Below are positions 10,598-28,047 of a stretch of DNA of 64,000 nt, in pieces (position 1 is the stretch's first letter; each line of letters starts with the position of its first letter). This DNA is from Variovorax sp. WDL1 (lineage in GTDB: Bacteria; Pseudomonadota; Gammaproteobacteria; Burkholderiales; Burkholderiaceae_C). The DNA lies in NCBI RefSeq assembly GCF_001541225.1, contig NZ_LMTS01000026.1:46635-110634 (forward strand), read 5' to 3'. Under the pieces are notes generated by a model. That model was given only the letters and a program-made list of their open reading frames with translations. It was not told where the DNA came from and searched no databases. Position numbers and translations under genes: made by a program.

Positions 10598-10619
10598 ATA
10601 CTGTACGGCCATCCAGTAT
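10598..10619 (+). promoter_or_regulatory. LexA-like SOS box upstream of dnaE2
   Basis: The core CTGTACGGCCATCCAG (10601-10616) matches the CTGT-N8-ACAG LexA consensus with one substitution in the right arm. It is flanked by extended symmetry (ATACTG and CAGTAT). It lies 15 bases before the dnaE2 ATG, where bound LexA would block transcription. DnaE2 genes are commonly SOS-regulated, which fits. Confidence 0.6.
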
Positions 10620-13600: not shown

Positions 13601-13732
13601 AACGCCCGACTACTTGCCGTCAAGGGCACTTGGCAGCGCGAAGGTGAGCTCCGGAGCCTAGTCGCAGAGCGGTTGAAGGACCTGACACCATTACTTGGTC
13701 GACTGCGAACCACTTCCAGGGACTTCCATTGA
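10634..13732 (+). CDS. dnaE2: Error-prone DNA polymerase DnaE2 (ImuC)
   Basis: This is a C-family polymerase alpha subunit used for translesion synthesis in the SOS response. The 1032 residues from ATG 10634 match the family length; that start gives the typical N-terminus MSALPAYAELRCVSNHTYL. A frame beginning at 10499 would add an atypical leader that reads through the LexA-like box. A PHP domain covers about residues 1-210. The palm has PDIDIDF at about residue 378 and KVDCLALG at about 527, which carry the metal-binding aspartates. A C-terminal OB fold starts near residue 930 (VRYCGLVTLRQQPETANGVI). DnaE2 normally works with ImuA and ImuB; neither gene is in the window, so this copy is an orphan or is partnered elsewhere. 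A divergent copy of its last 28 codons lies at 25161-25259, beyond the CRISPR-Cas locus. Confidence 0.92.
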   Translation: MSALPAYAELRCVSNHTYLRGASQPEELVERASQLGYSALAIADECSLAGIVRAHVAAKEHGLKLLVGTQVQVACGHPFTLLVLACNLNGYGNLCEFITKLRRGSEKGKYELQFADLTAAALEDCVVVACPKRMSTPEQLETTGRWLLSEFRGRCWFGVDLLRLIDDEMWLYRLRQVSELTAIPLVAAGDVHFHVRSRKPLQDVLTATRVGRPLTECGLDLQPNAERHLRTRLRLAQTYPEDLLAETLNVAARCQFSLEELRYQYPDEVVPDGETPSSYLRRLTYEGAGRRWPEGVPAKVQLQIEHELTLIQELRYEHYFLTVADIVQFARSRNILCQGRGSAANSVVCYCVGVTEVDPARMSVLFERFISKERNEPPDIDIDFEHERREEVLQYLYRRYGRDRAAITGVVTSYRPKSAVRDVGKALGFDLEVVDQLAKNHQWFDGKAVMPERLVELGLSLDDLKVRQLMLLTGQLLGFPRHLSQHTGGFVLTRTALSRLIPIENASMKDRTVLEWDKDDLDALGFLKVDCLALGMLTAIRKCLDFIGQRKGFVFAMQDIPAEDPETYEMISRADTVGVFQIESRAQMSMLPRLKPRCFYDLVVEVALVRPGPIVGGMVHPYLRRRQGLEPVTYPSEALKEALGRTLGVPVFQEQVMQIAMLAAGFTAGEADGLRRAMAAWKRKGGLEKYHSKIVEGMTTRGYEKAFAEQIFEQIKGFSEYGFPESHAASFALLVYASSWIKRHHPAEFLTAMLNSQPLGFYSPSQLVQDAKRHGVVVRPPDVMHSNLDCTLEDLPHAPAVRLGLRLLAGLRWESAQRIVDERARGPFDNAEDLARRARLELAEMKLLASADALMSLSGHRRVAVWDAAALRSVPELLQEARVDEDVLELAPAPEGEEVMFDYAATGLTLRSHPLALLRPLLAKRGLATAADLQDVENGAEVRYCGLVTLRQQPETANGVIFVSLVDETGVVQVIAWRSIKEAQRQELLNARLLAVKGTWQREGELRSLVAERLKDLTPLLGRLRTTSRDFH

Positions 13733-13772
13733 TTTCTCAATGCCACGGCTAAACCGCTGAGCTATATCGATA

Positions 13773-14047
13773 GGGACATCCGCACCCGCGGGAATAGCTC
13801 GAGCGCAATCCGCGATGTTGGGGAACGCATTCGGAGAAGCCCCGCGTAAGCGGGGATAGCTCGTTCGAGAGGCACCGCAGCTCGGCGTATTGAGGGCACC
13901 TCCCGCGTCGGCGGGGATACCTCGTGCCATCACCCAACGGAGTTCATAGCCGCAACGTTCCTCCAGCGTAAGCAGGGATAGCTCGTAGTGCTCGTCCTGC
14001 AGCTCTACGATGAGCTTGTCTGCCCCGCGAGAGCGGGGATGTGCTTG
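13773..14047 (+). CRISPR. CRISPR array 1, five heavily decayed type I-E repeats
   Basis: Five repeat relics end near 13801, 13863, 13924, 13985 and 14047. They keep the 61-bp period (29-bp repeat, 32-bp spacer) of the intact array and the ATAGCTCG-like 3' end in most copies. Every copy has several substitutions, and no leader is visible because dnaE2 ends 40 bases upstream. The orientation matches arrays 2 and 3. The spacer at 13864-13895 resembles the 5' end of dnaE2 on its opposite strand. The array is probably too degraded to yield functional crRNA from most units. Confidence 0.8.
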
Positions 14048-14102
14048 GGCATAGCCCGCCCAACTCAACGCCCCTGGGTGTCGGGTTCCGGGACGTTCGG
14101 GC

Positions 14103-14425
14103 TTATAGCTTGATGCCTATCACCGTCGCCAAGGCGTCCAAGCGATTCTCTGGCAGTGCGGCCAGGTGCATCGCGATGCGCTCGAGCTTGGGGGGACTTT
14201 AGGAGGCTCTCCTGCTGCGTCAACGCCAGTAACGAGCCAGCGCGCACTCACCTGAAGGGCGTCTGCCACTGCAAATGCATTGACTGCTGATACCCCGCCG
14301 GCGTCTGACTCCATCTTGCGCACGGCCTGCAGCGTGACGCCCACGAGGGCAGCTAGCTCCTTCTGCGTCATTCCGAGCCTCTCGCGACTAGTGATGATTC
14401 TTTTCGGGAGGTTGTCCATCTCCAA
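14103..14425 (-). pseudogene. XRE-family regulator, frameshifted at a C6 tract
   Basis: The N-terminal 70 residues are a normal XRE helix-turn-helix (SRERLGMTQKELAALVG, then WLVTG). The frame then reads a low-quality tail to a stop at 14120. One base beyond a run of six C on the coding strand (G run at 14190-14195), another frame encodes a sensible ending, KLERIAMHLAALPENRLDAL and onward to a stop at 14103. A seventh C would join the two frames exactly. The gene is divergent from cas3 with 149 bases between, so it may once have regulated the cas genes. The DNA-binding part survives in the current frame, so a truncated but active repressor is possible. Confidence 0.7.
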
Positions 14426-14459
14426 ACTGTATTCGAAGTGTTGGCTCGGCCGCGCCAGC

Positions 14460-14480
14460 GAACGACGTTTGTCGCCGTTC
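14460..14480. promoter_or_regulatory. Candidate operator between xre and cas3
   Basis: GAACGACG and CGCCGTTC form an inverted repeat (7 of 8 positions) around TTTGT. It lies in the divergent xre-cas3 promoter region, where an XRE protein would bind. The function is inferred only. Confidence 0.35.
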
Positions 14481-14574
14481 CGGCGTTTTAGGACGGCCCA
14501 AGCCGCACCTGGGCGCGCAATCAGTTTAGACCGCTAAATACTCACTCTAGACGGAGCTCCACCAGGAGCTTCGT

Positions 14575-17148
14575 TTGACTGCAGATTTTCTAACCTATTG
14601 GGGCAAGGCGCACCCATTGCCCGGCACAACTGTCGCTTGGCACCCCCTTGCGTATCACAGCTTGGACGTCGCTGCGGTCGTTGGCGAGTACCTGCGGGTC
14701 AATCCTTCGCTCAGCTCGACGCTGGCTCGACTCCTGGGGATGGCCGAGGACGCTGCAATCAAGGTGGCCATGTTCCTGGCAGGCAGCCATGATGTTGGCA
14801 AGTTCGGCCCGTTTCAAGCGAAGGTCGAGGAGCTGTTTGCTCAGCTGCAGCCGGACCAACCGGTTCCCTCTCAAGCTGCACAGCACCACTCCCAGGCCGG
14901 CATTTCCACCTTACTCGACTGGGTGTCGGCCCGGTGGTACCCCGATTCCCTCGAAGACGCGGAATTAGCGCTAGAGCCCCTTCTGAACGCTTCTTGCGGG
15001 CACCACGGCAGGCCAGTTGACCTCTCAAACTCGACAGGGGTGGGGAAGCGCACGACTGCGGCAGCCCACGCCTACCTTGATGCCGTTGCCGACGTATTGG
15101 GGCTCGACAGTTTCGTCGACCTTTGGGACGGAGGCGGCTACCGCCAGGCGTCATCCTTGCTCGCCGGCGTGCTGACCCTCTGCGACTGGGTCGGCTCCAT
15201 GCAGAGGTTCTTTCCCTATCGAGCACCGACGATGTCCTTGAAGTGCTATTTCGTCGAGGCACAAGACCAAGCGCGTACCGCGCTGGTTGAGCTCAGCCTG
15301 GCGGAAAAGCGCCCAAGCGCCAAAGCCGGGCTCTCGCACCTATTCCCTGCGTTCACGGCGAGTGCCACACCGCTACAGCGATTTGCTGATAGCGTCGAGT
15401 TGGACCGCGCCGGCCCTTCCCTGTTCATCCTGGAGGATGAGACCGGTGCCGGCAAGACCGAGGCCGCGCTGACCCTTGCTTCGCGGCTGCTTCAGGCCGG
15501 AAGAGGCACCGGGGTGCTCGTCAGCCTACCGACACAGGCCACCGCCGATGCTCTTTGCGGGCGGCTGCTGCCTTTGGCCAACATGTTTTTTGAGGCAGAA
15601 GGCGGAGTTCCGTCGTTCTCGCTGGCACACGGAAGTGCGTCTCTGTCGCTGGCGCGGCTGCGCTCGGAGCATCTCGAAGCTGGGTCGATTTGTGCCGACC
15701 TCGACAGCTGGGCCCAGGACAGCAGCAAGACTGCCCTGCTTTCGGACGTCGGGGTGTGCACCATCGACCAGGTCGCGCTGTCTATCCTGCCGGTGAAGCA
15801 CTTTTGCTTACGGCAACTGGGCATCGGGCAAAAGGTCCTGGTTGTTGACGAGGCTCACGCATGCGACGCCTACATGCTCAAGCTTCTTGAAACAGCGCTC
15901 GAGGCACATGCCATGCGCGGCGGTAGCGCCATCCTGCTGTCGGCAACGCTACCGCGGAAGCACAAGGCCGCCCTTGTCGCTGCCTTTCGGAAGGGCGCCC
16001 GTTGGACTGGCGCGCAGGCCGTCCCTGTCTCCACCGACTACCCTCTTGCCACTGTCGCCTCTTCGGGCGGCATGGTTGAGACGCCGATTGCCGCACGACG
16101 TGTGAGCAGGTTCACCCGCATTCAGCGAATCGGGGATAGCGCAACCGAAGCCCTCGTCCTGAGGCTACTTGCAGCAGGCAAGTGTGTTCTCTTGCTGCGC
16201 AACACAGTCGGCCGTGCCCAGGCGGACTTCGACACGTTCTTCGCCCTGTTGCCAGGCCAGGTGCAGCTGGCGCACGCGAAGTTTGTCGGCAAGCATCGCT
16301 CGGAAAATGACCGCAACCTGCTGGAGCAGTTCGGCAAGCGCTCGACATCCGCTACTCGCAAAGGACAGCTGGTCATCGCTACCCAGGTGGCGGAGCAGTC
16401 ACTCGACGTGGACTTCGACGAGCTCATCACCGACTTGGCCCCAATCGACGCCTTGCTGCAGCGTATCGGCCGCTGGCGCCGGCACGTTCGGGACGCCGAC
16501 GGGAAGATGGCGATGGCAGGCGACGATGCGCGCGGGGAAGGCCTGGTGTACGTAGTCGCGCCCGAGACTCACGGCAATGTCGACTTCCTTGCGGAGCTCC
16601 CTGCGAACACGATGTTCGTCTATCCCCTTCCTGTGGTGCTCTTTCGCACGGCACAGTTGGTTGAGGAGCGCGGTGGCTTGCAGATTCCCGCAGGCGTTCG
16701 GGAAGCCGTCGAGTTCGCGTACGACGAAGAGGCCGAGGCGCCAGCATTTCTGGCGTTTGCGGAAGAGCGGTCAGAAGGGAAGATTGAAGCAGCCAAGCGA
16801 GCGGCTAAAAACGTTCGACTGAATCTGACCGTGGGCTACTCCCAGTTGATTGCAGACGTGGCGCCTGAGCAAGCAGTGACCCGGCTGGGGGAGAAGTCGG
16901 TCCGGGTAGTGCTTTGCGACCAAGGCGGCGCCCCCTTGTTTGGCAGCATGGAGTTGTCCCGCCTAAGCCTACGAGCAAGCCTACTTGCTCTCGAGGTCGA
17001 CGACACCGGGCACGCAAAGTTGAGGATGGGCGCAGCCGGCTCGGGTGAGTGGGAGATGTTGGCGGTCGACCATGCGAGCAAGGAGCGATTGGTCCGCTAC
17101 AGTCGGACCCGTGGGTTTTCGGTGGGCCCACCACAGCGGCGGAGATGA
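14575..17148 (+). CDS. cas3: Type I-E CRISPR-associated nuclease-helicase Cas3
   Basis: Cas3 is recruited by target-bound Cascade, then nicks and degrades the displaced strand with its HD nuclease and SF2 helicase. At 857 residues the length is normal. The HD nuclease domain shows HSLD at about residue 28, SHD at 71-73 and HH at about 144. Helicase motifs are GAGKTE at about 290 (Walker A), DEAH at about 425, SAT at about 456, and QRIGRWRR at about 629 (motif VI). The start is a TTG six bases after an AGGAG site at 14564. All key residues are present and I see no lesion. Cas3 stands apart from the Cascade genes, separated by array 2, cas1-cas2 and array 3, with its own upstream region shared with the divergent xre relic. 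Confidence 0.93.
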   Translation: MTADFLTYWGKAHPLPGTTVAWHPLAYHSLDVAAVVGEYLRVNPSLSSTLARLLGMAEDAAIKVAMFLAGSHDVGKFGPFQAKVEELFAQLQPDQPVPSQAAQHHSQAGISTLLDWVSARWYPDSLEDAELALEPLLNASCGHHGRPVDLSNSTGVGKRTTAAAHAYLDAVADVLGLDSFVDLWDGGGYRQASSLLAGVLTLCDWVGSMQRFFPYRAPTMSLKCYFVEAQDQARTALVELSLAEKRPSAKAGLSHLFPAFTASATPLQRFADSVELDRAGPSLFILEDETGAGKTEAALTLASRLLQAGRGTGVLVSLPTQATADALCGRLLPLANMFFEAEGGVPSFSLAHGSASLSLARLRSEHLEAGSICADLDSWAQDSSKTALLSDVGVCTIDQVALSILPVKHFCLRQLGIGQKVLVVDEAHACDAYMLKLLETALEAHAMRGGSAILLSATLPRKHKAALVAAFRKGARWTGAQAVPVSTDYPLATVASSGGMVETPIAARRVSRFTRIQRIGDSATEALVLRLLAAGKCVLLLRNTVGRAQADFDTFFALLPGQVQLAHAKFVGKHRSENDRNLLEQFGKRSTSATRKGQLVIATQVAEQSLDVDFDELITDLAPIDALLQRIGRWRRHVRDADGKMAMAGDDARGEGLVYVVAPETHGNVDFLAELPANTMFVYPLPVVLFRTAQLVEERGGLQIPAGVREAVEFAYDEEAEAPAFLAFAEERSEGKIEAAKRAAKNVRLNLTVGYSQLIADVAPEQAVTRLGEKSVRVVLCDQGGAPLFGSMELSRLSLRASLLALEVDDTGHAKLRMGAAGSGEWEMLAVDHASKERLVRYSRTRGFSVGPPQRRR

Positions 17149-17155
17149 GAGCCGC

Positions 17156-17173
17156 GGCGCACGTACGTGCGCC
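17156..17173. promoter_or_regulatory. Perfect 18-bp palindrome between cas3 and array 2
   Basis: GGCGCACGTACGTGCGCC is perfectly self-complementary. It starts 8 bases after the cas3 stop and ends 45 bases before the first repeat of array 2, so it lies where a leader or terminator is expected. There is no loop and no T run, so a protein-binding site is the better guess. Confidence 0.4.
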
Positions 17174-17217
17174 AATGAACGGATAAAGCCGGTGGCTAAA
17201 AAATGCAGGTGCGAAAG

Positions 17218-18037
17218 ACGTTGACCGCGCAAGCGGGGATAGCTCGCCGTAGTTTCGGGTGTCGAACGACGCGTGCGTCTCTCCCCGCGCAAGCGGGGAT
17301 AGCTCAGGAGCATCGGACCGATGCCAACCGTCGCCATCGTTTATCCCGCACAAGCGGGATGATGCGCACCGGATACGGAGGCCGCAAGCCGGCTCCCCCC
17401 CCACCAGCGCAAGCGGGGATAGCTCGGCCGGTCTCGTTCACTGATATCGCACCGAACGGCTCCCCCCCCCCGCGCTAGCGGGGATAGCTCGGTCTGCGAT
17501 GCCGTCCTCTTTCGGGGTGACCGGTCTCCCCCGCCTACGCGGGGATAGCTCGGGTTGTCGCATCATCACTTGCGGTGGCGTTGAGACTTCCCCGCGCACG
17601 CGGGGATAGCTCAGGCTGGAACCGCGAGCGCGAGCAGTATCAGGCGTCTCCCTGCGCAAGCGGGGATATCTCGGACTTGAGGGCTGCCATTTGCTTGTCT
17701 CCTGCGTCCCCTCCGCGCAAGCGGGCATAGCTCGTTCTGTAGGACGTCGTGCACGCCGCCGCCCTCGTCTCCCCCGCGCAAGCGGGGATATCTCGGGAAG
17801 CAGCAAGTAGTCGCTCTCATTTGCGTCGTCGGCCCCGCGCGAGCGGGGATAGCTCGCCCCCCCACCAGAACGTCCGGCCGCGCATCAGAGTCTCTCCCGC
17901 GCGAGCGGGGGTAGTTCGTGCGATTGCTCGTGCAGTGGCGAGAACCATGGGTCTCCCCCGCAAGCGGGGACAGCTCGCTCGCCCACAGGAAATGTTCTGG
18001 ATGGGGCATGTCCCCCCGGCGCAAGCGGGGACACTCG
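17218..18037 (+). CRISPR. CRISPR array 2, about 14 diverged type I-E repeats
   Basis: About 14 repeats, ending near 17246, 17306, 17366, 17426, 17491, 17552, 17613, 17673, 17734, 17795, 17856, 17918, 17977 and 18037, follow the same 29+32 scheme with occasional indels. Only the unit at 17524-17552 and a few others approach the array 3 consensus. Most differ at several positions in the 5' part or in the last eight bases. A possible further relic follows at about 18054. Several copies keep the GCGGGGATAGCTCG half that would give the stem and 5' handle of a crRNA, so partial function is possible. The array lies between cas3 and cas1. Long arginine- and proline-rich open frames here are repeat artefacts. 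Confidence 0.88.
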
Positions 18038-18161
18038 AAACGATTGCCGTCGTGCTCGCAAGCGGGAATCGCCGGGTCACGTCAAGGCGCCCTCATTCGG
18101 CGGGATATTTGCTCTCCGCGTCAGCAGAAGACCTGGTGGTAACGCAGCGCTACACCTGGGT

Positions 18162-18982
18162 ATGAACGCCCCGCTAAAGCCTATCTATCGCCTTCAGAAG
18201 GAACGGATACCCTTCATTTTCCTGAGCTACGGCCGCCTTGACGTCAAGGACGGCGCATTTGTACTGGAGGATGCGAATGGAACTCGCGTGCAGATGCCAG
18301 TGGCTGCTTTCAATGTCTTGTTTCTTGAGCCCGGGACGAGCGTGACCCACGCTGCCTTCCAGCTCGCGGCCCAGTGTCACACTCTCATTTGCTTCGTTGG
18401 CGAGCAAGCGTGCCGTACATACTCTGTCGGGCGCCCTTCCGACGGAAACCCTACCAACCTTAAAGTGCAGGTCTTGGCATATGCCGACGAAGCCCGGAGG
18501 CTTCAGGTGGCCCGCAAGATGTTCGAGATTAGGTTCGGCGAGGCGATTCCGGCCCGACGCAGTATTGAGCAACTTCGAGGCATCGAGGGGGTGCGGGTCC
18601 GCGAGTCCTACAAATTGCTGGCTCGACAGTTCGGAGTGGACTGGAAAGGCCGAACCTACGAGCAAGGAGAGTGGGACGCTGCCGATAGCGTCAACCGGGC
18701 CCTGTCCGCAGCGAATGCGGTGGCTGTTATTCTCGCCTGCGGATACAGCCCACGATAGGGTTTGTCCACGACGGAGGGGCCAAAAGTTTTGTATACGACA
18801 TTGCAGACCTCTATAAGTTGGAGATTTGCGCACCTCTTGCGTTCAGGGCTGCCGCGGGGAGCTCGGCATTCGCGGTGGAGACTCAAGTAAGGCGGCACCT
18901 GCGTGACCACTTTAAGCAAACGCGATTTGTTGCGCGGGTCGTGGATGACCTCAAAGGCCTGTTCGAAGAGTCGACCGCATGA
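18162..18982 (+). pseudogene. cas1: Type I-E integrase gene cas1, frameshifted with a six-residue deletion
   Basis: Cas1 with Cas2 inserts new spacers. Codons 1-199 read as Cas1e (IFLSYGRLDVKDGAFVLED), including the catalytic glutamate in RGIEGVRVR at residue 142, but stop at a TAG at 18756. One base out of phase, the remainder continues perfectly: IGFVHDGGAKSFVYDIADLY, carrying the catalytic histidine and the two aspartates, to a TGA at 18980 that overlaps the cas2 start. A one-base deletion near 18750 explains the break. In addition, SAANA joins directly to VAVILACGYSP, so about six residues of the conserved helix (usually CLYG and neighbours) are missing near 18728. Two independent lesions make loss of function likely. 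A sequencing error could explain the frameshift but not the in-frame deletion. Confidence 0.85.
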
Positions 18983-19344
18983 TGCTCGTCCTCGTCCTGA
19001 CTGGTGCGCCACCTCGCTTAAGAGGCCGGCTATCAACGATACTGCTTGAGGTGCGGGCTGGCGTCTATACCGGGCACGCGACACAGAAACTGCGTGAAGA
19101 ACTATGGGCGTTGACTTGCGGCAACATCGAGGATGGCGACGCCCTGATTGTGTGGCCAGACCAAACTGAGGTTTGCGGCGTCTCGTTCCGGACGGTAGGC
19201 GTGAATCGGCGCCGGGCGGTCGAAGTCGATGGGCTGCAGCTGGTGGATTTCCCTCGGTTGAGCACAGACGAGGTCCCTGAGTCCATTATGGATTTAGCAG
19301 GTCTAGCGGAGGTGGTTTTCCCCGGTGGACAGTGTGACAACTAA
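18979..19344 (+). CDS. cas2: Type I-E spacer-acquisition protein Cas2
   Basis: Cas2e forms the structural core of the Cas1-Cas2 integration complex. The protein is 121 residues and contains the family landmarks PPRLRGRLSTILLEVRAGVY and GVNRRRAVEVDGLQLVDF. It carries a C-terminal extension of roughly 20 residues beyond the usual 95-100. The ATG overlaps the stop of the ancestral cas1 frame, so the pair was translationally coupled. The frame is intact, but with cas1 broken it probably has no partner. Array 3 begins 33 bases after its stop, so the 3' end of cas2 may contain part of the array 3 leader. Confidence 0.88.
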   Translation: MMLVLVLTGAPPRLRGRLSTILLEVRAGVYTGHATQKLREELWALTCGNIEDGDALIVWPDQTEVCGVSFRTVGVNRRRAVEVDGLQLVDFPRLSTDEVPESIMDLAGLAEVVFPGGQCDN

Positions 19345-19377
19345 AATGTTTCGCTAAATCAACGGGTTAGGGGAAGA

Positions 19378-20321
19378 GTCTCCCCCGCGCAAGCGGGGAT
19401 AGCTCGCGCAGCGTCAGGCTTTGGCGTGCTGCGTGCGCGTCTCCCCCGCGCAAGCGGGGATAGCTCGTCTTGTGGGGCGCTGACGGCCGCTGCAACGTCG
19501 TCTCCCCCGCGCAAGCGGGGATAGCTCGTAAATCCGTTCGCACCAAGGTGAGCCGCACGCGTCTCCCCCGCGCAAGCGGGGATAGCTCGCCGTGCTGGGG
19601 CGCGCGTACCGCGCAGCTGCTGTCTCCCCCGCGCAAGCGGGGATAGCTCGCAGTCTTTGCTTCCATCTCGAGACGTCGAGTAGTCTCCCCCGCGCAAGCG
19701 GGGATAGCTCGCCGGCGTCCACCGCGTTCGACATCGTGCCCCTGTCTCCCCCGCGCAAGCGGGGATAGCTCGCGAGGCTTGTTGCATGCAAAGAAGGGGG
19801 CTTCGTCTCCCCCGCGCAAGCGGGGATAGCTCGTCGACCATCGAGAGCATCGCCATCCAGGAGCCGTCTCCCCCGCGCAAGCGGGGATAGCTCGCCGACG
19901 AGGAAGCCACCCAGACATCCGTAGACGTCTCCCCCGCGCAAGCGGGGATAGCTCGCGGCTGGTGATTGGCCTCGAGGACGCCGAGGGGTCTCCCCCGCGC
20001 AAGCGGGGATAGCTCGTGCGCTATCACCTGGCAAGCGCGCTGCATTGAGTCTCCCCCGCGCAAGCGGGGATAGCTCGCCCTCTTCGAAGTGGTCGATGCC
20101 GGTGGACACGTCTCCCCCGCGCAAGCGGGGATAGCTCGTGAAATTGGTCGTCCTCGATTTGCTCACGCGTGTCTCCCCCGCGCAAGCGGGGATAGCTCGG
20201 TACGGGCTGCGGGCGATGAGCATTTGCTGAGGTCTCCCCCGCCCAAGCGGGGATAGCTCGCCCTTGATGGCCAAGTTCACGCCAATGAGCACGTCACCCC
20301 CGCTTGCGCGGGGATTGGAAG
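19378..20321 (+). CRISPR. CRISPR array 3, intact type I-E array with 16 repeats and 15 spacers
   Basis: Repeats of 29 bp start at 19378 and recur every 61 bp with no exception, so all 15 spacers are 32 bp. The repeat begins GTCTCCCCC, has a CCCCGC/GCGGGG stem around GCAA, and ends ATAGCTCG, which would form the crRNA 5' handle. Repeats 1-14 are identical, repeat 15 (20232) has one substitution, and repeat 16 (20293-20321) is degenerate at its end, the usual mark of the leader-distal terminus. This places the leader on the left, in the AT-rich gap after cas2. No two spacers look alike. Because 61 is one more than a multiple of three, the repeats create spurious open frames on the minus strand. 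Confidence 0.97.
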
Positions 20322-20419
20322 TCTCGGTCGACCGCCAACGGACAGCCCGTGCCAGGCTCTTGTGCTGCGGCGTGGAGCCTGGCCTCAGCTTTTAAGGCTG
20401 TAACCTATACTCGAGCGCA

Positions 20420-20449
20420 TTGCGCTATCAGTGTCCTTTGTGATACAAT
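20420..20449 (+). promoter_or_regulatory. Likely promoter of the Cascade operon
   Basis: TTGCGC at 20420 and TACAAT at 20444 are separated by 18 bases, resembling a sigma-70 promoter with a strong -10. It lies 71 bases before the cas8e ATG and after the last repeat of array 3, so the effector genes can be expressed independently of the array. Confidence 0.5.
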
Positions 20450-20520
20450 GAGTGACGCTTTAGCATTCGTCGCCTACGTCATCAAGCAAGGCGGCATAAT
20501 TTCACTATTTCGCTGTGCGC

Positions 20521-22092
20521 ATGAACGTACTCTTAGACCCTTGGGTCCCCCTCCTGCTGCCAGACGGTACTGTGGCCAAGCAGCGCATGGTGGACATCCC
20601 TACCTCCGGTGCGCTTCGTGTGGAGCATGCCCGAGCCGACTACTCAGCGCTCATCACTGAGCTGGCGGTGTGCGTTTACCAGACCCTTGCGGCGCCGCAC
20701 GACAGGATTGCGCGACGAGCTCTGGTGCGGGCCCCCGACCTTGCATTGCTGGACAAGGCGTTTCGAACTGCCGCGCCTGCGTTTGAAATCTTTGGTGACG
20801 GTGCACGATTCCTGCAGTCGCCAGAAGCTATTGGCGGAGAAATCCCTGTGCGTGGCCTGGTACCAGAGGGGCCCGGTGCGAACGCTGTTGCCAAAAACAC
20901 CGACCTTTTCGTTCACCGCTCGGCACTCGACTCAATGTGCCCACATTGCGCCCCGGCGGCCCTCTTTGGCAACCAGGCGCATGCGGGCCAAGGAGGTTCC
21001 GGCTACAAGGTTGCCCTGCGCGGGGGAAGCGCCCTGGCCGCGCTCATCGAGGCACCCACCTTGTGGGAGACCATCTGCCTCAATCTACTGGACCGCGACA
21101 CGTACACCGACCGCTACTGCCTCGAGGGTGGAGCGGAAGAGGATTTCCCCTGGACGACGGGCCTGAAGGTCTTCAGCAAGGAGGCAATCGGGCCAAGGGA
21201 GCTGGGTGCGCACGCGGCGCTCTGGTGGATGCCCCGTGCCCTGCGACTCCATGAAAGCGCGAACGCGGACGGCACCTCATGCTCCACCTGCGGAGAAGTT
21301 CACCCCACGCATATTCGAACCGCGAGCCGTGACAAGACGGCCGCCCGTCCGCCTGAGGGGCTCCGCCACCCTCACACGGCGTGGTGCATGCTCAAGAACG
21401 AGAAGGAGATAGACGGCGTCAAGACCAAGGTGGACGTTGAGGCCGCGGTCATGGTTCCGTCGGAAGGCTACATGCTCGGGGACTGGCTCGCGCTGACGCT
21501 GGGCGCACAAACCCCGACCCGCCGAATCTTGGCCGGCCTGCCCGCGATGGCACACCTGTCCCGCGCAGAGGCCGCGCGCGCTACCCTTCGCGTCTTCGGT
21601 CCGCGCTACGCCACCGCCACGTTCCTGACCTGGTTCGACGAGGCGGGGCCACTATTGGCCGCAGCTGACGCGGAGCACCTTCGTCAATTGCGAGCAGAGG
21701 CCGAGAAGCTGGTTGCCGAAGCGCAGCGGGTCCTCGTCATCGTCCGGACGGCCGCCCGGAAGAACCTCGGTAGCAAGAAGCGACCCCTTGCGGTGCCGCT
21801 TTCCAGCAGTCCCGGGCAACTCGAATCCGAACTTGCCGGCCGCGCACGCTCACTCATCAGCCGTGCACTGGCGAAAGTCGACGGAGCCGGCGGCAGCCTC
21901 ACGCAGGATGACTACGAGCAATTTTGCAGTCAGTTGCGCAAGGCGGCAGTATCGCTGTTCAACAGAGCGCTAGTCATCGACTTCGCGAATGAGACCTTGA
22001 GCCACAAGCTCGTTCTGCTGAGCGCCAAAACGTACTCACTGATTTACCCCAAGGCCAAGCCGGCCTCCAACCAGGACGCTATCGCCGCATGA
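20521..22092 (+). CDS. cas8e: Cascade large subunit Cas8e (Cse1/CasA)
   Basis: Cas8e recognises the PAM and recruits Cas3 within Cascade. The 523-residue protein starts MNVLLDPWVPLLLPDG, as is typical of Cse1, and contains the conserved NTDLFVHR segment at about residue 126. Cysteine pairs CPHC and CSTCG could bind a metal ion. ATG 20521 is chosen because it gives the standard N-terminus; a GTG six bases upstream is an alternative. The C-terminal four-helix region is present and the length is normal. The stop overlaps the start of cse2 by four bases, which indicates coupled translation. Confidence 0.92.
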   Translation: MNVLLDPWVPLLLPDGTVAKQRMVDIPTSGALRVEHARADYSALITELAVCVYQTLAAPHDRIARRALVRAPDLALLDKAFRTAAPAFEIFGDGARFLQSPEAIGGEIPVRGLVPEGPGANAVAKNTDLFVHRSALDSMCPHCAPAALFGNQAHAGQGGSGYKVALRGGSALAALIEAPTLWETICLNLLDRDTYTDRYCLEGGAEEDFPWTTGLKVFSKEAIGPRELGAHAALWWMPRALRLHESANADGTSCSTCGEVHPTHIRTASRDKTAARPPEGLRHPHTAWCMLKNEKEIDGVKTKVDVEAAVMVPSEGYMLGDWLALTLGAQTPTRRILAGLPAMAHLSRAEAARATLRVFGPRYATATFLTWFDEAGPLLAAADAEHLRQLRAEAEKLVAEAQRVLVIVRTAARKNLGSKKRPLAVPLSSSPGQLESELAGRARSLISRALAKVDGAGGSLTQDDYEQFCSQLRKAAVSLFNRALVIDFANETLSHKLVLLSAKTYSLIYPKAKPASNQDAIAA

Positions 22093-22577
22093 CTCCGCCA
22101 AACCCTTCCCTGTCCGCCGCCAACATTGTGGTCAGCGCCATCTTCGCCCTGAAGGCTTCCCGGAATCCGGAGTACTTCAGGTTGCGCCGAGGCAGCGAAG
22201 CGCTCCACGCAATGTTCGAACCCACTTTCCCCCAGACACGGCAGGCACTCTCCGCTGCGGGTCACCGCGTGCGTGACGAGAACCTTGCATGCGCGCTGCT
22301 TCTGCTTCCGCACGTCGGGCAAGGCAAGGCGAGCCTGGGGCAGGCTCTTGGGGACAAGAAGCACCCCTACTCCGCGCTCCGTTTCCAGCAGCTCGTTACC
22401 GCCGAGGGCCCGGAAGAGCTGTTTACGCATGTTCATCGTGCCATCCGCTTCGTTGAGGGCCAAGTGTCGCCCTTCAGCATCGCCGACCTCGCGCTGAACT
22501 GGACTGAGGGTTACGCGGACGTCCTGCGCAAGCGGCTCGTTGCGGACTATCACTCCGTGAAGCTCACAGCCGCCTGA
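22089..22577 (+). CDS. cse2: Cascade small subunit Cse2 (CasB)
   Basis: Cse2 dimers form the belly of Cascade and stabilise the crRNA-DNA hybrid. The 162-residue helical protein has the family pattern, with an early FRLRRGSEAL segment and a late LALNWTEGYADVLRKRLVAD segment. It overlaps cas8e by four bases. No lesion was seen. Confidence 0.9.
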   Translation: MTPPNPSLSAANIVVSAIFALKASRNPEYFRLRRGSEALHAMFEPTFPQTRQALSAAGHRVRDENLACALLLLPHVGQGKASLGQALGDKKHPYSALRFQQLVTAEGPEELFTHVHRAIRFVEGQVSPFSIADLALNWTEGYADVLRKRLVADYHSVKLTAA

Positions 22578-22631
22578 GCCGCGTCGCACCCACTCCGTCT
22601 CCGTTTTCATCCAATCCAATCGGCATCTCTT

Positions 22632-23801
22632 ATGACCAAGAAGTTCATTCAAATCCACGCACTGACCGCGTACGGCGCCAACAACCTCAACCGCGACGAG
22701 TTGTCGCGTCCGAAGAGCGAAGTGTTCTGCGGAGTTCCTCGTCTTCGCCTGTCCTCGCAGTGCTTGAAACGGGCTTACCGCACGAGCGAAGTTATGGCCG
22801 ACATCATGACCGGCACGCGCAGCCGCGACCTGTGGTTCACGCTTGCCTCGGAGCAAGTCGCCCTTGGTCACCCTGAAGCGGCCGTAATCGCGCACATCGT
22901 GCCTGTTCGCGACGCGTTCGAGGGTAGCAAGAGCGCCGCTCCTAAGGACGAAGAATCCGGGACGGACGACGCGGATTCTGAAACGCCGCCGTCCGAGGCG
23001 AAGAAGGGCAAGGGCGGCAAGAAGAAGAAGGGCGCTGCGCCCCTCCCCGCTACCTTGGCGGAGCTCAAGGGGAACCTGTTTTACGCCAGCAAATCGGAGG
23101 TCGAGTTCATCAAGACCGTACTGGCCGACTCGCTCAACCCCAGCGGCTCCACCAAGGGCGCTCCTATCGAGCAGAAGGTGGTCGAGGGCCAGATTCTGGA
23201 CCTGCTCATGAGCGTCGACGTGGCGATGTTCGGTCGCATGGTTGCCGGCAACAAGCCCCTCTCCGTCGAAGGCGGGGTGCAGGCCGCTCACGCGTTCACT
23301 GTTCACAAAGCGACTGCTGACGATGACTTCTTCACCGCTGTCGACGACATTTCGCCAGACGAGGGCTCGGGCCACATGGGTTCGAACGGTTTTGGCGCAG
23401 GGGTGTACTACTCCTACTTCAACGTGGACGTCGACGTACTGCTGAAGAATCTTAACGGTGACAAGGCGCTGGCGGCACGAGCAATCGAAGCCTTCATTGA
23501 GGCCGTCGCGACCGTGGCGCCCGGTGGCAAACAGAATACGTTCGCGGCGCGCTCGTACGCTTTCTACCTGGCGGTCGAGGTCGGGAATGCACAGCCTCGC
23601 TCCTATGCGGATGCCTTCGCCGCTCCGGTGAAGGGCGACGACATTACGGGCGGCGCCGTTGCAGCGCTGCGTGCGAACCGTGAAGCAGCCTTTCAATGCT
23701 TCCCCTCGCAGCGTACCGAGTATCGCGAAATGTTCGTCGCTGCCCGTCAAGGCTCCCTTCCTGAAGTGCAGGCCCTGGTGGCAGAGGCAGTGGCGGCTTA
23801 A
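22632..23801 (+). CDS. cas7e: Cascade backbone protein Cas7e (Cse4/CasC)
   Basis: Six copies of Cas7e normally form the crRNA-binding backbone of Cascade. The N-terminus MTKKFIQIHALTAYGANNLN and the segment GVPRLRLSSQCLKRAYRTSE are characteristic, as is HMGSNGFGAGVYYSYFNVDV later on. At 389 residues it is slightly long for the family. The excess lies at about residues 99-136, an insertion that is acidic at first (KDEESGTDDADSE) and then lysine- and glycine-rich (KKGKGGKKKKG). It probably forms a disordered surface loop. The gene follows cse2 after 54 bases and precedes cas5e by 9. Confidence 0.92.
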   Translation: MTKKFIQIHALTAYGANNLNRDELSRPKSEVFCGVPRLRLSSQCLKRAYRTSEVMADIMTGTRSRDLWFTLASEQVALGHPEAAVIAHIVPVRDAFEGSKSAAPKDEESGTDDADSETPPSEAKKGKGGKKKKGAAPLPATLAELKGNLFYASKSEVEFIKTVLADSLNPSGSTKGAPIEQKVVEGQILDLLMSVDVAMFGRMVAGNKPLSVEGGVQAAHAFTVHKATADDDFFTAVDDISPDEGSGHMGSNGFGAGVYYSYFNVDVDVLLKNLNGDKALAARAIEAFIEAVATVAPGGKQNTFAARSYAFYLAVEVGNAQPRSYADAFAAPVKGDDITGGAVAALRANREAAFQCFPSQRTEYREMFVAARQGSLPEVQALVAEAVAA

Positions 23802-23810
23802 GGGCAGACC

Positions 23811-24488
23811 GTGCACTACCTTGTTCTGCAACTGAAGGCGCCGTTAGCCTCCTTCGGGAGCACGTCGGGCGAGCAACGAGGCACTGATGGTCGGCCTCGC
23901 CGCGCCGCGGTGGTGGGCTTGCTCGCGGCTGCGCTAGGCATTCAACGTTCGGAAGACAGCCGCTTTCTCGCCCTGTCCAACGCGCTGTCGCTAGGGTATG
24001 TGGTACTTCGCACGCCAACTGTGCTGGTCGACTTCCATACCGTGCAGGCACCTGCAAAGCAAATCGGTCGCACCCGCAGAGAGCAGCTGGCCACCGGCGA
24101 GCCGAATTCGATGGTGACCCGTCGTGAGTACCTGCAAAGCGGCCACTGGTTAGTGGTCCTTGGAGGGGAGGAATCCGTTCTGCGCACCATTGCCGATGCA
24201 CTGTGCGCGCCCGCGTTCCCGCTTTACCTCGGCCGCAAGAGTTGTGCGCTGTCAGCCTTTACCGCACCACTCGTGTTTGCCGCCGAGACGGCGGAGGACG
24301 CAATGCGCGAGTGGAGCCGTCGTGTCGGAGGCACCGGCCATCCGTGTGAGCGCGAGTTCTTCTGGGAAGCCGACCTGCCAACGGCGGTCGAGCCGCTTGT
24401 CGTCCATCGGCGAAACGACCGACGTACTGCGCTCTCGAGAAACAGTTTTTCCTCCCGCGTTGAGCGGGAGGGTCATTTGACCCTTTGA
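23811..24488 (+). CDS. cas5e: Cascade subunit Cas5e (CasD)
   Basis: Cas5e binds the 5' handle of the crRNA. The 225-residue protein begins MHYLVLQLKAPLASFGSTSG, close to the canonical Cas5e N-terminus with its SFG turn. It contains TVLVDFHTVQAP and MVTRREYLQ, which are family-conserved. The start is a GTG at 23811, nine bases after the cas7e stop. The last codons overlap two hairpin-forming palindromes (24451-24483). Confidence 0.9.
   Translation: MHYLVLQLKAPLASFGSTSGEQRGTDGRPRRAAVVGLLAAALGIQRSEDSRFLALSNALSLGYVVLRTPTVLVDFHTVQAPAKQIGRTRREQLATGEPNSMVTRREYLQSGHWLVVLGGEESVLRTIADALCAPAFPLYLGRKSCALSAFTAPLVFAAETAEDAMREWSRRVGGTGHPCEREFFWEADLPTAVEPLVVHRRNDRRTALSRNSFSSRVEREGHLTL
24451..24483 (+). promoter_or_regulatory. 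Two adjacent hairpins at the cas5e-cas6e junction, one resembling the CRISPR repeat stem
   Basis: CCTCCCGC and GCGGGAGG form a perfect 8-bp stem around GTTGA (24451-24471). GGGTCA-TT-TGACCC (24470-24483) forms a second, mutually exclusive hairpin. The first has the same shape and a similar base composition to the repeat stem (CCCCGC-GCAA-GCGGGG) that Cas6e binds. It ends 22 bases before the cas6e ATG. A role in cas6e control or mRNA processing is a hypothesis. Confidence 0.45.
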
Positions 24489-24493
24489 TTTTC

Positions 24494-25147
24494 ATGCAGC
24501 TCACCCACCTCACCCTCCCCCGTACCCGCGAATCGGTCGCCGCCTATTCCCGCCTGGTTGCGAACAAATACGTGGAGCACCAGGCGCTCTGGTCCATGCT
24601 CCAGGCTCGACCGGATGCCTCCCGGGAGTTCCTCTACCGCACTGAAATCACGGATGACGGTCTCGAGGTCTACGTTTTGTCGCCGAAAGCGCTCTCGCCC
24701 GAGGGTCCATGGCGCGCCCGAACGCGCGAATACGCGCCCAAGGTACGGGCTGGCCAACTGGTGGGCTTCTCACTTCGGGTCAGTCCGACGGAGGATAAAG
24801 CCCAGGGGCTCAATGCTCGCAGCAAGCGGGTCGACATGGTGATGGACCGATATCAGGCCGCTGGCGGCGAGGTCGACGTTCAGACTATCGCGCAGGGGGT
24901 AGCGGCCGATTGGCTCGAACGCCGCGAGGAAAGCTCGGGTTTTCGGGTCGTGGACTGCTCTGCGGGAAACTACCGACGCTTCGACGTGACGAAGCGGGGC
25001 CAGCACATGACCAAGCTTTCCTACCTGGACATCACCGGTACCCTCGAGGTGCAAGACCCCGCTCGTTTCCTCACGAAGCTAGCCACGGGATACGGTAAGG
25101 CGAAGTTCGCCGGCTGTGGCTTGATGCTGCTTTCCGCACCGAAGTAA
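24494..25147 (+). CDS. cas6e: CRISPR repeat endoribonuclease Cas6e (CasE)
   Basis: Cas6e cleaves the array transcript within each repeat and stays bound to the crRNA 3' hairpin. The 217-residue protein starts MQLTHLTLPRTRESVAAYSR and ends with the glycine-rich loop GYGKAKFAGCGLMLLSAPK typical of the family. An N-terminal histidine (VEHQALW, about residue 27) is positioned like the catalytic one. The ATG at 24494 matches the family N-terminus; a TTG at 24485 overlaps the cas5e stop and is an alternative. It is the last gene of the Cascade operon. Confidence 0.92.
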   Translation: MQLTHLTLPRTRESVAAYSRLVANKYVEHQALWSMLQARPDASREFLYRTEITDDGLEVYVLSPKALSPEGPWRARTREYAPKVRAGQLVGFSLRVSPTEDKAQGLNARSKRVDMVMDRYQAAGGEVDVQTIAQGVAADWLERREESSGFRVVDCSAGNYRRFDVTKRGQHMTKLSYLDITGTLEVQDPARFLTKLATGYGKAKFAGCGLMLLSAPK

Positions 25148-25160
25148 CCCTTGCGCGGGC

Positions 25161-25259
25161 AGAGCCGACGGGGAGCCGCGGAGCCTGGTCGCAGAACGGC
25201 TGAAGGACTTGACGCCACTGCTAGGGCTGTTGAGGACAAGCTCGCGGGATTTCAAGTGA
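25161..25259 (+). pseudogene. Remnant of the 3' end of a second, divergent dnaE2
   Basis: Starting 13 bases after the cas6e stop, an open frame reads SLVAERLKDLTPLLG, then LRT, SRDF and a TGA. It matches 24 of the last 28 residues of the intact dnaE2 at 10634-13732. At nucleotide level about 63 of 87 positions agree, and many differences are synonymous, so this is a diverged homologue that evolved under selection, not a recent copy. There is no upstream dnaE2 sequence, so it is a relic. It marks the right-hand junction of the CRISPR-Cas module. Confidence 0.85.
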
Positions 25260-25382
25260 CGCAGCGAGACCGTTCGCCGCAGCAATGGCGCGGCGCGTAG
25301 TCTGTCTGGCGTTAATTTCTCGATGCCCCTTCAGTCCTGCTCGACCTGGCGGCGCATTGTTCGTTGCGAGGCCAGCTCAGGG

Positions 25383-25577
25383 TGACATTCCTCCCCCCGC
25401 CAAGGCGGGGGGATTCCTACGTTTTAGGCCAGGCGCTGAGCGTGCACCTGTCCAGCGTGGTGGTCGTATCAGCCGCGCAAGTTGGGTGCTCGGGCGCCTG
25501 GCAAGAGCTGCGGGCTCCTATCGTGCGACCATGGCGTCCGCCTAATATCCCCGGCCTGAAGACGGTGGGTTTACGCG
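25383..25577 (-). mobile_element. Remnant or miniature derivative of an IS200/IS605-type element
   Basis: TGACAT followed by a CCTCCCC-type hairpin (25393-25412, a 9-bp stem around AA) and GGATTCC closely parallels the transposon end next to tnpB at 63476-63505, in the same orientation. At 25535-25577 the string CGCCTAATATCCCCGGCC and a decayed hairpin resemble the opposite end of such elements. No tnpA or tnpB coding sequence remains between. It is best read as an internally deleted element or a palindrome-associated miniature element, at the right border of the CRISPR-Cas region. Confidence 0.5.
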
Positions 25578-25671
25578 AGATGGTTGCTAAACCTCGCTCG
25601 GCATACACTACGTTCTACAAAGTCCGGCCCTTAAACGCAATTGAAGGTTATAGCTTTATAGAGTAAAGTAT

Positions 25672-26796
25672 GTGTCCCGTATAAATCGAAGGACGCTAGT
25701 GCAAGAGATTCGTCTGCAAGGTTTGCTCGCCCAACAGTCCCGGCGGCACAAGGTGCTGAGCGTGACGGCGCTGCCCGGCCAACTGCGTGCCATAGCCCGG
25801 GTCGAACGCGTGGGTCGTGAAGAGGACGGGAAGCTGCGGGGTTTCCAGCGTCACCTTGTTGCCAAGCACATCCGAGAAATCAGTGAGTACCTTCAGGAAG
25901 GGCATGCCATCCTGCCAAACCCGGTCGTGATTGCCTTCGTCAAGGGCGCGCGGGTTGAGCAAGTTGCCGGCAAGCTCCATGAGCTGGTGGTCACGCTCCG
26001 TGACGGCGACGGGCCCGGCTTCGTGGTCGACGGCCAGCAGCGTCTCGAGGCGCTCGTGGCGAGCGGTCGAACAGACTTCGAGGTCTTCTGCTCGGTCCTC
26101 ATCTGCGAGGACTACGCCGAGCTGCGGCGGCAGTTCGTGCTCATCAACAACACTCGGCCTCTACCCAAGCAGCTGGTCTACGAGCTTTTGCCAACAGTGT
26201 CGTCGTTGCCCAAGCGCATGAGCTCCCGGTCGTTCGGCTCCCAGGTTGTCGAGCAGCTCAACTATCGCGCCGACTCGTCGTTGCGCCGCGCGGTGAGCCA
26301 GCACACCAATCCCAAAGGCGTTGTGCGGGACACGGCGCTTCAGAAGCTCGTCATGTGCTCCCGCTCTGACGGCGCGCTTCGGGAAGCGCCGGCGGAGACC
26401 GCGGTCGCGCGCTCGGCTGACCTGGTCAGCGACTTCTTCTGGGCCGTCCGGGACACCTGGCCCTGCGCCTGGGACGAGCAGACCCCTCGGACCTCCCGGC
26501 TGGTCCACAGCGCCGGCATCATGGCGCTCGGCTTCGCCATGGACTACTTGCACGGCGTCGAGGGCGCCCGAACCAGGCAACAGTTCAGGGCCGGGCTGGA
26601 GCGCATCGCCAACGAATGCGCCTGGACGCACGGCTCCTGGCGGTTTTCGGTGGACGACGTTCGCCCTTGGAACCAAGTCCAGAACGCGGGTCGCGACGTA
26701 TCCATCTTGGCCAACCACCTGGTGCGCAGCCTTAAGGAGACCGGGCGTCCACGCCGGCGCGCGGCGCGTGTGGGCATCCAGTCGGCCTTGGCTTGA
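25672..26796 (+). CDS. DGQHR-domain protein (DndB-like)
   Basis: The 374-residue protein carries VVDGQQRLEALVAS at about residues 117-130, the signature of the DGQHR domain. DndB regulates phosphorothioate DNA modification and DpdB acts in deazaguanine DNA modification; this protein belongs to the same broad superfamily, though it could be a free-standing member. A segment FVLINNTRPLPKQLVYELLP follows, as in the family. The GTG start at 25672 has a weak ribosome-binding site. Its stop overlaps the start of the next gene by four bases, so at least the first two genes of the cassette are coupled. No dnd or dpd synthesis genes are in the window. Confidence 0.75.
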   Translation: MSRINRRTLVQEIRLQGLLAQQSRRHKVLSVTALPGQLRAIARVERVGREEDGKLRGFQRHLVAKHIREISEYLQEGHAILPNPVVIAFVKGARVEQVAGKLHELVVTLRDGDGPGFVVDGQQRLEALVASGRTDFEVFCSVLICEDYAELRRQFVLINNTRPLPKQLVYELLPTVSSLPKRMSSRSFGSQVVEQLNYRADSSLRRAVSQHTNPKGVVRDTALQKLVMCSRSDGALREAPAETAVARSADLVSDFFWAVRDTWPCAWDEQTPRTSRLVHSAGIMALGFAMDYLHGVEGARTRQQFRAGLERIANECAWTHGSWRFSVDDVRPWNQVQNAGRDVSILANHLVRSLKETGRPRRRAARVGIQSALA

Positions 26797-27266
26797 CAGC
26801 AAGGACCACGGGGCTGCACTCGCCCACCGTCTTCGTTGCCTGCTGCTCGCAAAAGTTGAAATCGGCTGCACCGGCGAGGGACTTGTACTGCTCGGACCTG
26901 TTCAGGAAGGCGCGCGCCTGGACTGAGCGGCAGACCGGGAGCTGGTACATCCTGTCCGCAAAGCATGGGCTCGTGCACCCGGACGAGCTTCTATCGCCCT
27001 ACGACCAGTCTTTGAACGACCTCAGTGCGGCTGGTCGCAAGGCGTGGGCCCGGGAAGTGGAACGCCAGATGCAATCGGCCAGCCTCCGAGGAGAGGCCTG
27101 CGTCGTCCTCGCGGGGCGGGCCTACCGAGATGACTTGATGAGATTCCTGTCCACGAGGTTTGGCGACGTGCACGTCCCGCTCGCCGGGCTCGGCATTTTG
27201 TCGCAGAAGGCATGGCTGAAGCGGCGCCTGGCGCAGCAGGCGGCCGGGTTCGCGCAAGCAGCGTGA
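26793..27266 (+). CDS. DUF6884-like protein
   Basis: This 157-residue protein has an early CCSQKL motif, an ARDLYCSDLFRKARAW segment, the signature WYILSAKHGLVHPDELLSPY, and a C-terminal Rossmann-like stretch. This pattern is typical of DUF6884 and YaaA-like proteins found in phages and accessory regions; the biochemical role is not established to my knowledge. It starts at a TTG overlapping the DGQHR gene stop and is followed 31 bases later by the glycosylase-like gene. Co-translation with a DGQHR protein suggests a shared task in DNA modification or its sensing. Confidence 0.65.
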   Translation: MTARTTGLHSPTVFVACCSQKLKSAAPARDLYCSDLFRKARAWTERQTGSWYILSAKHGLVHPDELLSPYDQSLNDLSAAGRKAWAREVERQMQSASLRGEACVVLAGRAYRDDLMRFLSTRFGDVHVPLAGLGILSQKAWLKRRLAQQAAGFAQAA

Positions 27267-27297
27267 TAACTTCGACAGAACGTTGAACAGAGGCACC

Positions 27298-28047
27298 ATG
27301 GAAGAAGGCGAAGACAAGTACAGGGGATTTTTGGACAGGTCGTTCGACACGGCCTTCGAGGCGTTGCGCCTTCCTTTGCTGCCTTGGGTAGGCTCGGCCT
27401 TCCGAACGTCCGCCAAAAGGACCATCGTGCTGGGCGAAAGCCTCTATGTCTGGGGCTCGGCTGAGGAGTACGAGAGGAACCGCGAGAAAATTTCGGTCGT
27501 TGACAGCATGCGCTGGCGGCACCTGAGGATGGGCCTGTCGGACAGCTTTCCAAAGGGCAGCCGCAAGCGCGCATTCCTCGCGAATTTCGAGCGAGCCGTG
27601 TTCCTGAAGACACGGCCCTCCGCCGCGGAGCGGCAGAGGCTGTGGTCCGAGGTCGCCTACCTCAACTTGGTGCCACGGCTGCTGAATTCCCGCACGCATC
27701 GGCCGAAGGACGAGGACTTCGTGGCCGGCTGGAACCAGTTTTTTCCAGTGGCGGCCGCGCTAGAGGCTGAGCGTTGCATCGTCTATGGCACAGAGCCAAA
27801 GAAGATTGCCGCGCTTCGCGCAATGCCTGACGTGCAGATACTCGTGCAGGAGCGCCTACCTGCGATTGTCGACACCCGCCCGCTGCACATGCGGCTCGTG
27901 CACGGGGGACGGGAGCTGGAGCTCTTTTTCGTCCGCCACCCCAGCGCGTATTTTCCCTGGGACGAATGGGGGCCGGTACTTCGCAGCCGCGGTGTTTGGC
28001 TGGACTCCACTTCCGTCCCGCCGGCCCAAGTCGCTGAGCCCGCTTAA
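27298..28047 (+). CDS. Uracil-DNA-glycosylase-like protein
   Basis: The protein (249 residues from ATG 27298, after an AGAGG site) has the outline of the UDG superfamily. An early TIVLGESLYVWG segment sits where motif 1 is expected. A central WSEVAYLNLVPRLLN segment follows, and a late FFVRHPSAYFPWDEW segment resembles the HPS motif 2. The usual catalytic Asp or Asn of motif 1 is not obvious, since Glu-Ser follows the glycine. It may therefore act on an unusual base or only bind it. A TTG at 27283 is an alternative start. It is the third gene of the cassette. The family assignment is by eye. Confidence 0.55.
   Translation: MEEGEDKYRGFLDRSFDTAFEALRLPLLPWVGSAFRTSAKRTIVLGESLYVWGSAEEYERNREKISVVDSMRWRHLRMGLSDSFPKGSRKRAFLANFERAVFLKTRPSAAERQRLWSEVAYLNLVPRLLNSRTHRPKDEDFVAGWNQFFPVAAALEAERCIVYGTEPKKIAALRAMPDVQILVQERLPAIVDTRPLHMRLVHGGRELELFFVRHPSAYFPWDEWGPVLRSRGVWLDSTSVPPAQVAEPA

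Follow-up and report, generated by a model that had tools for sequence, protein, structure and literature searches.

A truncated 3' remnant of a second dnaE2 allele lies directly behind the cas6e gene of a type I-E CRISPR-Cas cluster on a Variovorax megaplasmid, collinear with an intact dnaE2 gene and on the same strand, the two being 11.4 kb apart. In the window (the whole stretch of 64,000 nucleotides that was analysed), a single small HTH ORF is all that accompanies the CRISPR-Cas locus between them, so that the cluster stands, as the preliminary description had it, between an intact dnaE2 and the tail of a different allele. We favour, at slightly better than even strength, the view that the fragment was left behind when a DNA block bearing the CRISPR-Cas genes joined into a resident dnaE2 by homology-facilitated illegitimate recombination; it is judged to be a displacement scar that is ordinary in itself but notable for where it lies.

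Homology to dnaE2 begins at about position 25158, some 10 bp past the cas6e stop codon (which ends at 25147), and ends at 25259 on the forward strand. The in-frame part (25167-25259; 30 codons plus stop) translates as DGEPRSLVAERLKDLTPLLGLLRTSSRDFK-stop. The orphan tail is 5'-truncated, with no ATG, GTG or TTG in frame ahead of codon 15 (read by eye), and is predicted to be non-functional by itself. When aligned with the tail of the intact gene (13640-13732), it is identical at 67 of 93 nucleotides and 25 of 30 amino acids, including 24 of the last 28 residues, which agrees with the earlier report of 24 of 28 C-terminal DnaE2 residues recurring after cas6e at about 72% nucleotide identity. The same stretch was matched in a tblastn comparison of the intact DnaE2 with the window (E = 2e-8) and appeared as a separate match in the genome search (E = 5.8e-7).

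A 24-kb segment (9300-33300) containing both dnaE2 sequences is present at 100% identity on four plasmids from Variovorax that degrade linuron (WDL1, SRS16, PBL-H6 and PBL-E5; 801-839 kb). An assembly error is unlikely, because these four named plasmid records all carry the orphan stretch at 100%; it is also carried by two genomes (G008 and G122) that are not independent of the PBL-H6 and PBL-E5 plasmid records. The gene for Cas8e was detected in three of 101 genomes of the genus, all three of them 100% identical over 25150-27300, and an empty site (this flank without the cas genes) was found neither in the 101 genomes nor on the plasmids covered by the searches. The HTH gene ahead of dnaE2 was, among plasmids, likewise confined to the four sisters.

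Searches of the genus, the family, plasmids and genome contigs yielded neither a donor of the block nor the parent allele of the orphan. In 399 genomes of the family the orphan DNA gave six other matches, all partial (70-100% over 21 to 102 bases), the conserved 16-residue core had no match in the search of genome contigs, and nothing close to the orphan or intact tail was seen on plasmids outside the four sisters. The cas genes gave similar results: Cas6e matched 19 others in the 399 family genomes, with a maximum of 38% identity, no Cas7e above 49% occurred among the other plasmid matches listed, and the nearest Cas8e elsewhere was about 42% identical at best (among 7997 candidates sharing most words), while a profile search for Cas8e relatives in genome contigs gave 33 pattern matches, none of which was confirmed.

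The cluster is encoded entirely on the forward strand. About four degenerate CRISPR repeats, of the repeat family of the other arrays, adjoin dnaE2 (13841-14040) and are followed by cas3 (14575-17148; Cas3e profile, E 6.5e-174, and annotation), an array with partly degenerate repeats (17225-18040), a truncated cas1 (18162-18758), cas2 (18979-19344; Cas2e profile), an array of uniform repeats with a 61-bp period (19375-20313), and finally cas8e, cse2, cas7e, cas5e and cas6e (20515-25147; PBL-H6 annotation, with Cas8e and Cas6e profiles). Two of the three repeat tracts are thus degenerate. As in other type I-E systems, cas3, cas1, cas2 and the Cascade genes are all recognisable, and the set is complete for cas3 and Cascade (cas8e, cse2, cas7e, cas5e, cas6e) by annotation and by the Cas3e, Cas8e and Cas6e profiles; the differences include the unusual order (cas3, array, cas1-cas2, array, Cascade genes) and the state of cas1. 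Its product comprises 198 aa, matches the Cas1e profile to position 198 of 269 only, and is equally long on the PBL-H6 plasmid; spacer acquisition has therefore probably been lost.

The sequence of the remnant is informative about its descent. It differs from the intact tail at 26 of 90 coding bases, 16 of the 26 being third codon positions, and of the 20 codons changed 15 are synonymous and 5 non-synonymous, in keeping with the many synonymous changes noted earlier. Because three-quarters of the changed codons (15/20) are synonymous, the fragment most likely descends from another dnaE2 allele that was once under selection, rather than from local copying followed by drift. Such a local duplication of the dnaE2 tail would account for the fact that the best protein match of the orphan is the window's own DnaE2 (25/30, the next being 23/30, among the best 120 of 452 matches); the candidate proteins were selected by words shared with the intact tail, so that the orphan's parent may have been missed. 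Against it, drift from the intact tail was simulated neutrally, with 20,000 runs for each of three base compositions. If the fragment bears all of the changes, every run gave at least eight non-synonymous codons, so that five or fewer occurred in none of the 20,000; if only half of the changes are neutral, five or fewer appeared in 2.3-3.1% of runs. Moreover, the orphan, whose 28% divergence is mainly synonymous, belongs to the same clade as the intact gene and shows almost as much nucleotide identity to the five nearest relatives (65-71%) as to the intact tail (72%). The pattern of codon changes thus rules against duplication and drift, which we regard as highly improbable. Derivation from another dnaE2 of the same genome was also rejected, the other three tails being merely 38-56% identical over 93 nt, as was a crossover inside the two tails, whose informative sites are intermixed. 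The proline at position 4 of the orphan was seen in none of 119 related C-termini (an ungapped comparison, in which some tails are out of register).

The intact dnaE2 (10634-13732, forward strand; 1032 aa) is annotated as an error-prone DNA polymerase on PBL-H6 plasmid 2. A complete imuB gene is encoded on the same contig, and it is not adjacent to dnaE2: imuA-imuB occupy 42.9-45.1 kb of the contig, so that imuB ends 1.6 kb to the left of the window start and 12.2 kb upstream of dnaE2, the interval containing a small ORF, a gene of 9.6 kb that encodes a choice-of-anchor D protein, and the HTH gene. In the genus, imuB is normally found at most 1.5 kb upstream (23 of the 29 dnaE2 loci examined; the six exceptions include two sister plasmids of the present locus), and in the five nearest relatives dnaE2 directly follows it. 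A dnaE2 start was looked for behind the plasmid's imuB and none was found. The mutasome cassette is thus split, and each half has its own predicted LexA-like box, scored against a 12-position consensus: that of dnaE2 (10599-10618), 15 nt ahead of the start codon, agrees at 11 of 12 consensus positions and is the sole site with at least 10 of 12 in the 64 kb, and that of imuA (contig position 42896) agrees at 10 of 12. By eye, the dnaE2 leader resembles the imuA leader of relatives. Plasmid imuABC cassettes as well as vestigial imuBC genes have already been published (PMC4151985, in part). The present locus resembles those cassettes in having an accessory imuA-imuB-dnaE2 set on a large plasmid, with broken copies in the genus, and differs in that dnaE2 lies 12 kb from imuB behind its own predicted LexA-like box.

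In spite of this separation, imuB and dnaE2 share a history. Trees of the two genes (18 rows each) both place the plasmid, with strong support, as sister to the same four genomes (G099, G022, G075 and G023), and its imuB/dnaE2 distances to the 17 others fall between -1.4 and +1.9 sd from a line fitted to 136 pairs with the present plasmid left out. Because the tree positions are the same and the distances lie on one line, the intact dnaE2 is best seen as having long accompanied imuB, the alternative being that everything from imuA through the CRISPR-Cas genes arrived as one block; an older cassette could have been replaced only by a block that also carried imuA-imuB. On the same grounds we rejected the replacement of dnaE2 alone. 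Allele replacement as put forward in the preliminary description is possible. Its first part, the origin of the tail from a different allele, stands; either allele may be the newcomer, although the intact dnaE2, which tracks imuB, does not look like one that arrived alone.

The composition of the two tails at first seemed promising for a tail exchange inside the intact gene, by which its own end would be foreign and the orphan native. The last 31 codons of the intact gene have a GC3 of 0.55 and match four relatives at third positions with an identity of 0.31; the corresponding values of the orphan are 0.77 and 0.52. A GC3 break of this size was reached in 25 of 2000 permutations, and third-position identity was as low in 1.9% of 31-codon windows. 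In a control of 18 dnaE2 genes, the signal of the intact tail was the lowest of six in the nearest clade and only the fourth lowest overall for the third-position difference and the third lowest for GC3, while the orphan tail lay above all 18 control genes; the exchange is thus not supported, the signal being not unusual among dnaE2 genes. These values bear equally on a site-specific integration at the dnaE2 3' end, in which the intact gene would have received an element-borne tail and the orphan would be the displaced native one. Some integrative elements insert at the 3' ends of genes, so that a copy of the gene end recurs on the other side of the insert. The present arrangement is alike in this respect and resembles an attL/attR pair; the low GC3 and third-position identity of the intact tail would fit, and an imperfect direct repeat, ATTTCTC(A/G)ATGCC, is found outside the tails at 13732-13744 (from the last base of the dnaE2 stop) and at 25315-25327, 55 nt past the orphan stop. 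Its 12 of 13 matching positions were reached in none of 100 single-base shuffles, for a repeat that was chosen after looking. The likeness ends with the tails, whose longest identical run is 8 nt and thus provides no longer identical core, and with the insert, where no integrase or recombinase was recognised among the ORFs and annotations of 13733-25160. As the tail signal itself is just the fourth lowest of the 18 dnaE2 genes, we consider such integration quite improbable.

Two other explanations separate the tail from any displacement at this site. The cluster may already have been joined to a dnaE2 piece of another host before it entered the plasmid beside dnaE2, as could be suggested by the mere 10 bp or so between cas6e and the tail, and by the fit of the intact dnaE2 to imuB, so that the tail may be the sole foreign part of dnaE2. 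We find this improbable: the family genomes, plasmids and contigs searched yielded no relative of the cluster that carries such a tail, and an entry just beside another dnaE2 needs an extra reason. More serious, though still unlikely, is that an older dnaE2/imuABC cassette nearby decayed by deletion to its last 30 codons, the CRISPR-Cas genes having come separately. A search of the 101 genus genomes with the last 59 DnaE2 residues gave many matches in short open frames, and of 12 taken from those listed for closer study eight, in eight genomes (G023, G119, G082, G071, G115, G002, G026 and G079), were verified as tail-only relics away from contig ends; three matches near a contig end (G107, G091 and a second one in G023) and a broken gene keeping its 5' part (G016) were set aside. 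Short 5' pieces of dnaE2 were also matched in the genus (as search matches only), and the published vestigial imuBC genes point the same way (PMC4151985, in part). Accessory dnaE2 relics are ordinary in Variovorax, and because they are so common a relic alone is no proof of an allele replacement linked to CRISPR-Cas. Against simple decay, mere chance would have to explain why the remnant is collinear with an intact allele of its clade and follows it: for the eight verified relics an intact dnaE2 was never seen as close as 11.4 kb, the nearest on the same contig being about 70 kb away (G079). What distinguishes the present relic is its place: it follows, on the same strand, an intact allele of its own clade, from which a CRISPR-Cas cassette separates it.

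The displacement reading builds on what is observed at the locus: the remnant itself, the mostly synonymous allelic difference, its position and strand, and its identity in the sister plasmids. A 3' piece of a different allele is found collinear behind an intact allele and an insert, as in displacement remnants. The parent of the remnant, a resident dnaE2 allele, would have stood at the spot of the orphan, and the incoming block with the CRISPR-Cas genes would have been anchored on one side in dnaE2-like or linked imuAB sequence. On the other side, a presumed illegitimate joint would have formed beside cas6e, about 30 codons ahead of the dnaE2 stop, as the putative non-homologous end; the joint is abrupt. 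The intact dnaE2 would either have come with the block, in which case imuA-imuB probably came too, or be the older gene.

A succession of intact gene, insert and displaced 3' piece is also the pattern of type VI secretion (T6SS) effector genes in Vibrio cholerae, for which homology-facilitated illegitimate recombination was suggested as the mechanism, with Rhs loci hypothesised to behave likewise (PMC5361080, in part). The T6SS effector-immunity arrays and Rhs orphan 3' regions are alike in that an intact allele is followed by collinear leftovers on the same strand, and differ in the gene (here one for a DNA polymerase), in the insert (here a CRISPR-Cas cluster) and in the number of remnants (here just one) (PMC5361080, in part). 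Several points count against displacement. The searches described above turned up neither an empty site nor a donor, and microhomology at the joint could not be shown. Since accessory dnaE2 relics are common in the genus, the remnant may predate the arrival of CRISPR-Cas and be unrelated to it, and the tracking of imuB by dnaE2 suggests that the intact gene is no lone newcomer. In E. coli experiments homology-facilitated illegitimate recombination was rare (PMC3240628, in part), and sequence divergence lowers strand exchange and transformation (PMC6382021, in part), so that a diverged dnaE2 would be a poor anchor. Displacement scars in other gene families, plasmid imuABC cassettes and their vestiges are all known; what is new here is the dnaE2/CRISPR-Cas instance, no account of which was found in a literature search that included the consulted parts of the linuron-plasmid paper (PMC7039861).

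At 25381-25591 (reverse strand), 121 bp behind the orphan tail, an IS605-like element is represented by a 211-bp remnant that lacks tnpB; its two pieces (25381-25517 and 25539-25591) are 87% identical to the two ends of a full element, TnpB-like gene included, on the same contig (7926-9689 of locus L067). A DpdB-like gene (E 1.5e-111) and then a DUF6884 gene follow at 25672-27266 of the window. They are perhaps part of a defence or DNA-modification module, and no further PADLOC match was obtained in the next three ORFs scanned.

A wider proposal is that plasmids and islands take up defence cassettes again and again by recombination anchored in accessory dnaE2 genes, and that a dnaE2 tail stays behind as the scar of every such event. 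We hold it to be a long shot, for which there are leads: the CRISPR-Cas genes here and the dpdB-like genes beyond the scar, a relic tail beside a PD-Lambda-4 gene in G115 (L113, 2215-11179; a strong PADLOC match), another beside a Cap4-like nuclease gene in G071 (L112, 4098-7303; score below the Pfam cut-off) and a third near a PDC-S31-like gene in G119. PADLOC matches near some dnaE2 relics (strong in L113, others in L109 and L112, weaker ones in L112, L115 and L116) are accompanied by matches beside an intact dnaE2 (a DpdF/RecQ-like helicase in L063, and a weak match in L064). The genes scanned were chosen by hand from the output of a rough ORF caller, and the matches are listed without a rate and with no claim of enrichment. 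If true, a role of dnaE2 as a repeated anchor for defence genes would represent a testable route of island growth.

The survey of relics illustrates how frequent broken accessory copies of dnaE2 are in a single genus. Scars of the kind described here can orient cassette insertions that are otherwise untraceable, and the present one suggests that the CRISPR-Cas cluster joined the megaplasmid by recombination beside a mutagenesis gene.
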